Part shown: in pieces, positions 15,358 to 62,675 of the stretch
Layout: every line of letters starts with the position of its first letter
How positions within the stretch are numbered: position 1 is the stretch's first letter
Assembly: GCA_013204155.1 (NCBI GenBank)
Contig: JABMOK010000023.1
Span: 1 to 64,000 of the forward strand
Length of the DNA: 64,000 bases
Source: Pseudohongiella sp.
GTDB lineage: Bacteria; Pseudomonadota; Gammaproteobacteria; Pseudomonadales; Pseudohongiellaceae
Reading direction: 5' to 3'
The notes under the pieces: model-generated
Databases searched by the model: none
What the model was told of the DNA's origin: nothing
Seen by the model: the letters and a program-made list of their open reading frames with translations, nothing else
Program-made: the position numbers and the translations under genes

Positions 15358-16827
15358 GTGGACCGTCCAAGCGTAGATGATTATTTCGGTGACTGGAAAC
15401 AGCGCGAAGCATTAGTGCAGGAAATGATTCCTGTGATCGGCCGATTATTCAGTCAAAGGAATGTTGGCTTGTATATCTATGGGCGATCGATTCACAACCG
15501 CTCGGTGACATTTATCATGAAATCTCATCGCTTTGTGCGGCAGATAGAGCGCAATGAGATGTCAGAGTTTGAGTCACACCCGGTACTCATGGCATTAGCC
15601 AAGCTGGACCTGGAGCATGCCCAGATCGATCTGGGCAAGCTCACCGTGCGCTTTATGGAACATCTCGAGGAAAAAGGCGATGGCGCACTCGGCGTGGATG
15701 AATTTGTGCATGGCGAATTGGCTTATCTGGACGGGGTGAAGAGCAAGCCGGTTGAGAAGTGCCAGGACGTAGTGCTCTACGGTTTCGGTCGTATTGGTCG
15801 ATTGATGGCGCGATTGCTTATCGAGCGCACCAGCACCGCTGAAGTTATGCGGCTTAAGGCGATTGTGGTGCGACCAGGTGGAGAAGGTGATTTGCAGAAG
15901 CGGGCCAGCCTGTTCAACCGGGATTCGGTACACGGCGCTTTTCAGGGCACCTTGCGGGTCGATGAAAAGACGAATAGTCTGATTGCTAACGGTAACGAGA
16001 TGAAGGTGATCTATGCCAATAGTCCGGATGAGATTGATTACACCCAGTACGGGATTCATGACGCGCTGATCATTGATAACACCGGAATTTGGCGCGACAA
16101 GGAAGGCCTTTCCCTGCATCTCAAATCCAAAGGTGCGGCCAAGGTTATTCTGACGGCGCCTGGCAAAGGCGATATCAAGAATATTGTCTACGGCATTAAC
16201 GATGATCAAATTACCCCGGAAGATACGATAATTTCGGCGGCATCCTGTACCACTAATGCGATTGCCCCGGTGTTAAAAGTTTTAAATGACAAGTTTGGCA
16301 TCCAGCAAGGCCACGTGGAAACTGTGCATGCTTATACCAATGATCAAAATTTAATTGACAACTATCACAAGGGTAGTCGTCGGGGTCGGGCAGCGGCTTT
16401 GAATATGGTGCTGACTGAAACTGGCGCGGCCAAGGCCGTGGTCAAGGCGATACCCGAATTGGAAGGAAAATTAACTGGTAACGCGATAAGGGTCCCGATT
16501 CCCAATGTTTCAATGGCGATCCTGAATCTGACCCTGGAAAAGGCCGCGACCAGGGATGAGTTGAACGAATTTCTGCGGGATATTGCGCTGCACTCGAAGT
16601 TACAAAATCAGATCAGTTATACCGAGGCGGCCGATGCGGTATCCAGCGATTTCGTTGGCACCAGAGAAGCGGGGATTGTGGACTCCAATGCCACCATAGT
16701 GAATGGCAATCACTGTGTCTTGTACCTGTGGTACGACAATGAGTTTGGTTACTGCTGTCAGGTAGGCCGAATGGTGTATAAAATGGCGGGCATTACTTAT
16801 CAGCAATACCCGCTTGAAGAGAGCTAG
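15358..16827 (+). CDS. Glyceraldehyde-3-phosphate dehydrogenase, long form with N-terminal extension
   Basis: VVLYGFGRIGRLMARLL, SAASCTTNAIAPVLKVL, WYDNEFGYCCQV; 489 aa. Confidence 0.93.
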   Translation: MDRPSVDDYFGDWKQREALVQEMIPVIGRLFSQRNVGLYIYGRSIHNRSVTFIMKSHRFVRQIERNEMSEFESHPVLMALAKLDLEHAQIDLGKLTVRFMEHLEEKGDGALGVDEFVHGELAYLDGVKSKPVEKCQDVVLYGFGRIGRLMARLLIERTSTAEVMRLKAIVVRPGGEGDLQKRASLFNRDSVHGAFQGTLRVDEKTNSLIANGNEMKVIYANSPDEIDYTQYGIHDALIIDNTGIWRDKEGLSLHLKSKGAAKVILTAPGKGDIKNIVYGINDDQITPEDTIISAASCTTNAIAPVLKVLNDKFGIQQGHVETVHAYTNDQNLIDNYHKGSRRGRAAALNMVLTETGAAKAVVKAIPELEGKLTGNAIRVPIPNVSMAILNLTLEKAATRDELNEFLRDIALHSKLQNQISYTEAADAVSSDFVGTREAGIVDSNATIVNGNHCVLYLWYDNEFGYCCQVGRMVYKMAGITYQQYPLEES

Positions 16828-16981
16828 CTAGCAGCGCCACTGAACTTGTCGAAATTTACTAACAAGCCGCGTTAATAAGACGCTAATGGATAGAATTCCT
16901 GTAGGTTCGGCTGCGCAAGCCTGGGGATGAATTCAAATTGAAGCAACGGCATAGTAGCTGGCAATTTTAGTGGCTTAGACC

Positions 16982-42097: not shown

Positions 42098-42754
42098 ATG
42101 AAATTAGAACTCAGTTATTTTTTTAAACAGAAACTGCCGGTAATTGCACTGCTGGTGGCGGTGATTGGGATTTTATTATTGCTGAATTTTATTGCGCGGG
42201 ATGATGTGCAGGCGAGCAGGAAAAACTACGATCGACAGAGTCTTTATCAATTCTTCGAAGCGGGAAGCTTCGATAATGATTTGCTCCTGGATACTTTTTT
42301 GTTACCGGCAAATCAACAGCACGAGAAATTGATAAATATGCAGCTGTTGAACTTAAGGCGTGATCGACTTGCCTATTTAGCGAAGAAGAATGGTGAGGTT
42401 GTCGCCGTTGCCGTGCCGGCGACGGCTGATGACGGTTTTAACGGAACTATTGATCTGTTAGTGGCCGTTGATATGTATGGACGTATTTCGGCGGCACGGG
42501 TAATAAAGGATCTGGATTCCGATGAATTGTACGGAGTCGTAGAGCTTGTCGAATCTCAGTGGATGAAAGCGTTCGAGGGAAGCAGTATGCGGGATATTCT
42601 TCGCATTAGTTGGCAGAAAATTTCAGCCGACAATGAATATGACAAGTTTGTCGGTGCCTCAATTACCCCAAAAACAGTATCCGATCGTATCTATGATGCG
42701 CTGGTCTTTTTTAATTCCAATCGCATTGCCTTGATGGCGGGAGACGAAGGATGA
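42098..42754 (+). CDS. RnfG-like FMN-binding domain protein, orphan
   Basis: GTIDLLVAVDMYGRISAARVIKD...W..AFEGSSM...DKFVGASITPKTVSDRIYDALVFF resembles RnfG; no other Rnf subunits in the window. Confidence 0.75.
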   Translation: MKLELSYFFKQKLPVIALLVAVIGILLLLNFIARDDVQASRKNYDRQSLYQFFEAGSFDNDLLLDTFLLPANQQHEKLINMQLLNLRRDRLAYLAKKNGEVVAVAVPATADDGFNGTIDLLVAVDMYGRISAARVIKDLDSDELYGVVELVESQWMKAFEGSSMRDILRISWQKISADNEYDKFVGASITPKTVSDRIYDALVFFNSNRIALMAGDEG

Positions 42755-42900
42755 AGACGAATTTTAATGAGCAATTTTCCGCGCATGCTCTCACTTATGC
42801 CAACGCCAGGCCTGGGGCACGGATCCGCAACAGGCAGTCGAAGTGCAATGGCCGATGGTTTTAAAGCTTGGCCGAAAGGAGTGGCTGGTTGAGTCGCTTG
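42751..42900 (+). pseudogene. Remnant of a class I SAM-dependent methyltransferase
   Basis: Frame 1 MKTNFNEQFSAHALTYANARP (N-terminus), then a different frame AWGTDPQQAVEVQWPMVLKLGRKEWLV (C-terminus-like). Confidence 0.6.
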
Positions 42901-42915
42901 GCTTGAAGATAATGC

Positions 42916-43160
42916 TTCTATCGAATAGCACCGATAAAGCCTGCGGCTTATTGAATTTCGATTAGTGGTACAACATCTTGAAGAGAGTTCTGGTTCTGTC
43001 TCTGTTCTATCGAATAGCTTCAGCTAAAGCCTGCGTGTTATTGAATTTCGATTAGTGGTACAACATCTCGAAGAGTGTTTGTTCTATCGAATAGCACCGA
43101 TAAAGCCTGCGGTTTATTGAATTTCGATTAGTGATACAACATCTTGAAGAGAGTTCTCTT
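42916..43160 (+). repeat. Three tandem copies of a ~77-89 bp structured repeat
   Basis: Copies start at 42916, 43005, 43082: ttctatcgaatagc...taaagcctgcg...ttattgaatttcgattagtg.tacaacatct.gaagag. Confidence 0.93.
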
Positions 43161-43221
43161 CTTGGTATTCAGGGTCATTCGGACTATCATGAGAGCGGCA
43201 TAGAATAGTATCAATGGAATC

Positions 43222-44256
43222 TTGATGTCAGCATGTAAGATCTCTGTAATTGGCGGTGGCAGTTTTGGTACCGTAATTGCAAATATAACGGCAGAAAATG
43301 GCCACGACGTCAGTTTCTGGATGCGTAGCGAATCCCAGGCAGCAGATTTAAATCGTGATCACGAAAATGCGCAATACCTTCCCGGCTATAGTTTAAGCGA
43401 GCGACTTGTTGCAACCGCCGATATGGCAGCGGCCGTGGCTGACAGCGAGCTTATTTTCGTCGCTGTCCCCAGTTCTTCGTTTCGGCAAGTAGTCAGGGAT
43501 GTCATGAAACACGCCGCCGCCGATGTAATCCTGATCAGCACCACCAAGGGCATAGAGGCCGGAAGCTTCATGCTGATGAGCCAGATTCTTATGCAGGAAG
43601 CGCCAGAGGCTAAAGTCGGGGTCTTAAGCGGTCCTAATCTGGCAAAAGAGATTGCCAGCAAATCCCTCACCGGTACCGTCATCGCCAGTAATCATGAGGA
43701 AGTCAGGGAGATCGTAAAAAAGGTACTTAAATCTGAGTATTTCCGGGTCTATACCAATGACGATATGTTTGGGGTAGAGCTGGGCGGGTCGCTGAAGAAT
43801 ATCTACGCCATAATTGCCGGTATGGCGGCGGCTTTAGGCATGGGTTACAACACAAATAGTATGTTAGTAACCAGAAGTCTTGCCGAGATGGCCCGCTTTG
43901 CCAAGGAGTTAGGTGCCGACCCGATGACCTTTCTGGGTTTGGCCGGAGTCGGGGATTTAGTAGTGACCTGTTCAACCCCTTTAAGCCGAAATTACCGCAT
44001 CGGATTCTCTCTTGGTCAAGGCAAGTCGATCGAGGAGGCGAAAGCCGAGCTTGGACAGGTTGCGGAGGGGGTGAATACAGTGAAGCTGGTGAAGGAAAAA
44101 GCGGATGAACTGGGTGTTTATATGCCGCTTGCTGCGGGTCTGTACAATATCATCTATGGTAATGAATCCATGCAGAATATAATTTCTTCGCTGATGGGTG
44201 GAGAACAGGCACTCGATGTTGAGTTTGCTGCCAACAAGGACAAGATACTGGATTAG
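43222..44256 (+). CDS. gpsA: Glycerol-3-phosphate dehydrogenase [NAD(P)+]
   Basis: ISVIGGGSFGTVIANITAENGHDVSFWMR, GPNLAKEI, GLAGVGDLVVTC. Confidence 0.97.
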   Translation: MMSACKISVIGGGSFGTVIANITAENGHDVSFWMRSESQAADLNRDHENAQYLPGYSLSERLVATADMAAAVADSELIFVAVPSSSFRQVVRDVMKHAAADVILISTTKGIEAGSFMLMSQILMQEAPEAKVGVLSGPNLAKEIASKSLTGTVIASNHEEVREIVKKVLKSEYFRVYTNDDMFGVELGGSLKNIYAIIAGMAAALGMGYNTNSMLVTRSLAEMARFAKELGADPMTFLGLAGVGDLVVTCSTPLSRNYRIGFSLGQGKSIEEAKAELGQVAEGVNTVKLVKEKADELGVYMPLAAGLYNIIYGNESMQNIISSLMGGEQALDVEFAANKDKILD

Positions 44257-46341: not shown

Positions 46342-46401
46342 GTCAGGTGATAATTAGTCAGGTGATAATTAGTCAGGTGATAATTAGTCAGGTGCTAATT
46401 A
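46342..46401. repeat. 15-bp tandem repeat x4 overlapping the folE stop codon
   Basis: (gtcaggtgataatta)x3 + gtcaggtgctaatta. Confidence 0.95.
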
Positions 46402-62021: not shown

Positions 62022-62675
62022 TTGAAGCCAGGAACTAAACAGAGAATTGTCGGTACTGTAGTGCTGCTTGCTCTAGCTCTCATCTTTCTGCCTATCATTT
62101 TTGACGGCCAGGGCAGTTATCAAAGTCCGCTAAGCAGTCGGATACCGGCCCCTCCGCTGATTTCGATTCTTCCCGAGCCGGTAGCCGCGCGACCGGTGAT
62201 TATCGCTGATACCGAGGCTAGTGAGGTCAGCGAAGAGCCAGCGATAACTTCACCCGTAACTTCACCCATAACTTCACCCATAACTACAGATATAACTACA
62301 GATATAACTACAGATATAACTACAACTATAGCGACAGATCCACAGGCACCGATCGCCAGCCGGGTTGAAGTGACAGATTCTGAGCCAGTGTTTAGCCGTG
62401 AAATTCCGGCACTTGCCAGTACCGGTCTTCCGCAAGGCTGGAGTATACGACTGGGTTCATTTTCCGATTCGGCGAATGCCGATAAATTACTGAATCGTTT
62501 GCTCACGGCGGGTTATAGAGCTTACACACGTGACATAAGCGGCGAGCAGGAATCATTTACCGGGGTGTATGTTGGCCCTTGGTTGGAGCGAGATAAAGTC
62601 GATGAATATCAGAAGGTGCTGCAAGAAGAGTTCAGCCTGACAGGGATGGTTGTCCTTTATGAGCTTTTATTATGA
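62022..62675 (+). CDS. SPOR-domain protein (DedD-like)
   Basis: N-terminal TM after KQRIVGTVVLLALALIFLPIIFDG; C-terminal SPOR GWSIRLGSFSDSANADKLLNRLLTAGYRAYTR; TTG start. Confidence 0.88.
   Translation: MKPGTKQRIVGTVVLLALALIFLPIIFDGQGSYQSPLSSRIPAPPLISILPEPVAARPVIIADTEASEVSEEPAITSPVTSPITSPITTDITTDITTDITTTIATDPQAPIASRVEVTDSEPVFSREIPALASTGLPQGWSIRLGSFSDSANADKLLNRLLTAGYRAYTRDISGEQESFTGVYVGPWLERDKVDEYQKVLQEEFSLTGMVVLYELLL
62244..62339 (+). repeat. 12-bp in-frame tandem repeat x8 (I-T-x-x tetrapeptides)
   Basis: ITSP/VTSP/ITSP/ITTD/ITTD/ITTD/ITTT/IATD encoded by consecutive ataact... units. Confidence 0.92.

Follow-up and report, generated by a model that had tools for sequence, protein, structure and literature searches.

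A dispersed 77-bp intergenic repeat and its tandem array upstream of gpsA in a Pseudohongiella genome

Organisation of the gpsA locus and its array

In the window, by which we mean the whole stretch of 64,000 nucleotides analysed here, three direct copies of a 77-bp repeat (the 77-mer) lie on the forward strand between a decayed gene and gpsA. Copy 1 (42916 to 42991, 76 nt) is directly followed on its 3' side by a 13-bp linker GGTTCTGTCTCTG, delimited from the letters themselves (42992 to 43004), and then come copy 2 (43005 to 43081, 77 nt, placed also by alignment) and copy 3 (43082 to 43157, 76 nt). The copies match profile R1, a sequence-only profile built from 16 copies of the repeat, with 55.2, 59.5 and 55.1 bits respectively (E 2.4e-14, 1.0e-15 and 2.5e-14). 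Identity is 97% between copies 1 and 3, and copy 2 shares 88% and 87% with these; the Tandem Repeats Finder scores of 270 and 243 place the likeness of the copies far above chance. The preliminary description of this DNA had read three direct copies starting at 42916, 43005 and 43082, with some 12 extra bp between the first two and a position between a pseudogene and gpsA, all of which is borne out. It had also recognised no known feature class in the array, and indeed no Rfam family matches there, a tRNA being the only Rfam match in the window.

The near-identity of copies 1 and 3 and the difference of copy 2 are what would be expected if a dimer had been duplicated and one copy had subsequently been lost. 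The left part of copy 2 (TAGCTTC) is nearer to the family consensus than that of copies 1 and 3. Runs of GGTTCTG that resemble the linker are likewise found 3' of copies at two other places in the genome (C66 and C182).

The decayed gene is the remnant of a SAM-dependent methyltransferase gene (42751 to 42885, forward strand), recognised by tblastn and by reading against L071 and L116. Its N- and C-terminal ends are kept, while the middle is deleted and the remainder is frameshifted. Both L071 and L116 have the intact gene, of about 250 aa (PF08241 in L071), between a gene with an FMN-binding domain and gpsA.

In the window gpsA (43225 to 44256, forward strand) is likewise intact, and is at most 82% identical to its counterparts in relatives. 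By its GpsA the host falls near the Pseudohongiella/OM182 Gammaproteobacteria. Upstream of it a conserved promoter, TTGGTA-N17-TATCAT, occupies 43162 to 43190 on the forward strand, so that 4 bp separate the end of copy 3 from the -35 box. Of 81 gpsA loci of relatives, 22 have the motif at the corresponding position, against 0.02 expected in shuffles. Judging from these letters, gpsA probably retains its own promoter despite the array. Since the array leaves this promoter intact, it probably affects gpsA only slightly, and we regard it as probably neutral for the gene; it is possible that the array acts on the promoter as upstream DNA. Two MAG records titled Klebsiella pneumoniae (L083) and Rhodoferax (L122) carry a gpsA of this Pseudohongiella-like lineage (72% and 67% identity, respectively), and their titles look wrong.

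Dispersal and placement of the 77-mer

The first lead beyond the array came from blastn against the genome that contains the window (3.48 Mb, 202 contigs). It gave a second place, from the DNA of which diverged copies could be traced on many contigs. With profile R1, 26 copies at about 20 sites are detected in this draft assembly (E <= 1.3e-4), four of them in the window and 22 elsewhere; 16 of the 26 belonged to the set from which the profile was built and match by construction, the other ten being found by the profile or weaker relatives. The fourth copy of the window is a single one on the reverse strand (16820 to 16895; 58.7 bits, E 1.9e-15), and its right end reaches into the stop codon of a GAPDH-like gene (15358 to 16827, forward strand), the 3' end of which was compared with relatives. 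This genome-wide dispersion identifies the 77-mer as a repeat family rather than a single local duplication.

Across 24 aligned copies the layout is TTCTATCGATTRGCT - variable middle - AATTTCGACTAGTTCAGTGG - TTCTAGAGGGTTCT, with a near-constant length of about 77 nt, almost no indels, sharp ends and conserved blocks at constant spacing. The left end, TTCTATCG... (given also as TTCTATCGA), is the best-conserved portion, which would fit recognition by an enzyme; the right end is ...GGGTTCT. The 77-mer is AT-rich (43% GC), and its copies are 67-82% identical to the consensus, with a mean identity of 63% between sites. No frame that might encode a peptide is open in more than 6 of the 24 copies, and the internal direct subrepeat TCGAYTAG, present in both halves, does not go beyond shuffles in a simple test (168/300).

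None of the approximately 20 sites lies within the body of a convincing gene, and ORFs of at least 100 aa cover 89% of the window. As at 16.8 kb in the window, the right end reaches into or directly adjoins the stop codon of an oncoming gene at C6, C23, C56, C66, C35, C46 and C183. In two genes beside copies that were compared with relatives, the protein ends near its natural length. Among the genes neighbouring the 77-mer sites, no shared function or orientation stands out.

Six sites (the window, C6, C66, C42, C173 and C103) hold copies in tandem, complete or partial. Identity within a site ranges from 64 to 97% and mostly exceeds the mean between sites, which points to local duplication. 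Tandem organisation is also seen in C131 (L025, G000:C131:11410-11594), where the 43-bp unit TTCTATCGATCAGTTTAGTGCTAGTTGCTGTAACTATTGTTCG appears to derive from the 77-mer by internal deletion, and the DNA at C177:35584 looks like a leftover tandem junction.

Outside its own genome the 77-mer is practically absent from the genomes searched. A profile search of 57 relatives, of which 36 belong to its genus and 21 to other families of the order, found no copy. A genus-wide profile search of 84 genomes gave one marginal match outside the own genome, in G023 (E 0.0099 per genome), which covers 56 of 77 positions on the minus strand of L207:1501-1556 and is intergenic, upstream of a rhodanese-like ORF. 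One such match is about what chance gives among 83 other genomes. With 26 copies in one genome, at most one chance-level match in 83 genomes of the genus and none in the 57 relatives, we interpret the family as a lineage-specific expansion. Neither in named genomes nor in viral contigs did a consensus pattern, which was strict, have a match, and plasmid and phage records gave none when searched with the array by blastn; for both searches near relatives may lie outside the collections.

Nesting in other repeats and likeness to known elements

The genome contains a second dispersed intergenic repeat, here called Repeat-2, an imperfect palindrome of about 190 bp, the inverted ends of which are likewise imperfect (CACTGAGCTTG..GACGAAAGCAG / CTGCTTTCGGCTCATTGCACTGA). 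It occupies seven sites (L055:1577-1790, and L058, L062, L049, L043, L202 and L203). At C39 and C107 the 77-mer is situated between both halves of Repeat-2. The point of interruption, which follows CCTRCAGG, is identical in the two, and 10-15 bp of Repeat-2 are absent. These interrupted halves favour insertion of the 77-mer, or at least modular exchange. A further palindromic repeat, the third dispersed one, consists of GCGAGGACTGTTTGAGCGAAGCGAGTTCCGCAGCGC and arms and occurs near three full or partial 77-mer sites (L048, L051 and L029).

A recognisable transposition signature is missing, as neither a target-site duplication nor terminal inverted repeats nor a supported hairpin is found. No convincing target-site duplication is present at any single-copy site, and the 77-mer has no terminal inverted repeats, its TTCTATCG... 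and ...GGGTTCT ends not being complementary; at the array no inverted repeats were found. Among the relatives compared, which are too distant, no orthologous locus offers a clean empty site. The genome has two Y1-transposase (Y1_Tnp) genes, and no 77-mer occurs within about 1.5 kb on each side of either, in a draft genome from which a RAYT may be missing. At L038:1408-2430 a Y1 transposase domain is fused to a DnaA C-terminal helix-turn-helix (PF01797 + PF08299) in its own 340-aa frame.

By analogy the 77-mer would work like the small REP- or MITE-type repeats. It resembles REP/BIME elements and REPINs with their RAYT (PMC2817692, PMC3116915) in being short, non-coding, extragenic and dispersed, in forming tandem clusters and in the presence of Y1-type genes in the genome; tandem clusters, and insertion into or beside other repeats, have been described for REPINs (PMC2817692, PMC3116915). 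In contrast to them, it has neither a GT(A/G)G head with a GC-rich imperfect palindrome nor an inverted-pair unit, and it is AT-rich and not situated beside either Y1 transposase gene. The tests for a REP accordingly show extragenic, dispersed copies, about 26 at about 20 sites where REPs usually number more than 100, but no head tetranucleotide at the ends, no consensus pairs and a GC content of only 43%.

The MITE-like repeats ERIC/IRU/RU-1 and YPAL/RU-2 (PMC2229807) are, like the 77-mer, shorter than 200 bp, AT-rich, non-autonomous, mostly intergenic and lineage-restricted; the 77-mer differs in its lack of terminal inverted repeats, TA ends, target-site duplication and a contiguous open frame. 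Judged by its description, the nearest in character is RU-3, a partly conserved enterobacterial repeat of 103 bp that is evolutionarily older and probably immobile now, as the 77-mer seems to be too, although its length and host are different (PMC2229807).

Lacking the defining marks of REPs, REPINs and MITEs with terminal inverted repeats, the 77-mer is classed here only as a short interspersed intergenic repeat, with multiple dispersed non-coding copies and defined ends. BOX repeats are modular and fold. The pneumococcal BOX and RUP elements (PMC3049150) are, like the 77-mer, small interspersed repeats of one lineage, but their host is unrelated, and for the 77-mer no fold is supported. The family appears to be undescribed, while the type of element is itself fairly ordinary; the absence of the usual REP and MITE marks makes it a small test case for the spread of unstructured repeats.

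Origin of the repeat and competing interpretations

We consider it probable, at roughly 0.7, that the 77-mer is a lineage-specific, non-autonomous interspersed intergenic repeat that was copied in trans, is now decaying and has been amplified locally in tandem. Most likely it would have spread as a non-autonomous element copied by an enzyme acting in trans and would have settled at tolerated intergenic spots, often at gene ends or inside other repeats. The copies would be decaying at present, and recombination or slippage between them may have given rise to the full and partial arrays at the six sites, that of the window included. Mobility is suggested by the dispersion of the copies together with their nesting in other repeats. 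However, the mean identity of 63% between sites implies either that any mobility is old or that the conservation reflects something other than mobility.

A variant of this interpretation, which we hold to be rather unlikely, is a repeat that moves without any hairpin, terminal inverted repeat or target duplication, by a mechanism that reads the conserved ends, with a preference for other repeats and the ends of genes. Equally doubtful is that the 77-mer is merely one module in larger mosaic repeats, Repeat-2 among them, and is copied with them and not alone. The 77-mer does lie inside or beside Repeat-2 at five of the seven Repeat-2 sites, but about 15 sites have it without Repeat-2 and with the same sharp ends, tandem arrays among them.

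We also have to consider that the dispersed copies may serve as sites for a DNA-binding protein involved in nucleoid organisation or regulation, so that selection would keep their sequence. The conserved blocks at fixed spacing, the conservation of sequence rather than structure and the intergenic position of the copies would fit such a role. It is nevertheless improbable, as the copies are strongly diverged (67-82% to the consensus), no function or orientation is conspicuously shared by their neighbours, and the 77-mer is absent from relatives that have the same neighbouring genes. IHF sites in particular show no excess, with 2.5 mismatches against 2.41 +/- 0.12 in shuffles.

A structured RNA or cis-acting RNA array preceding gpsA, in which the outer stem would be conserved, and at which the preliminary description had hinted, is very unlikely. 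The letters of the stems drawn there are present, and the outer stem can pair in all three copies of the array; over 22 copies it is 78% paired, the inner stem only 55%. The high value of the outer stem is largely due to TCGA, a self-complementary motif that both sides conserve, and beyond this motif the stems find no support. Slid controls are less paired, which is expected because the structure was drawn from these very sequences. Taken exactly as drawn, the stems have 66% paired cells in the 22 copies, compared to 64.0 +/- 1.1 in shuffles, of which 29 of 500 reach 66%, and their covariation score is reached by 52 of 500 shuffles. RNAalifold yields no consensus pairs on either 16 or 22 copies, and folding energies are like those of shuffled controls, with mean z-scores of -0.29 +/- 0.21 and +0.16 +/- 0.20 for the two strands. 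Apart from the missing Rfam match, the conserved gpsA promoter is downstream of the array, which would therefore lie outside the transcript from that promoter. Where stems are read from the letters of tandem repeats, covariation has to be tested over the full family.

The view of the array as no more than a neutral, local tandem duplication in DNA under decay, for which the adjoining pseudogene and the nearly identical copies 1 and 3 could be adduced, is refuted as a full account by about 19 other sites that hold the 77-mer with the same ends, and survives only for the tandem step. The preliminary description had foreseen such a neutral duplication for a unit occurring only here, with neither covariation nor a transcript; covariation is indeed not found, but the unit is genome-wide. 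What appeared as a local curiosity is instead a family of repeats restricted to one lineage, that of an uncultured Pseudohongiella/OM182-like bacterium, and is of modest practical significance.

Short tandem repeats of other kinds are likewise seen in the window: at 46342 to 46401 a 15-bp unit GTCAGGTGATAATTA is repeated four times beside a folE-like gene, and at 62244 to 62339 there is a 12/24-bp array.
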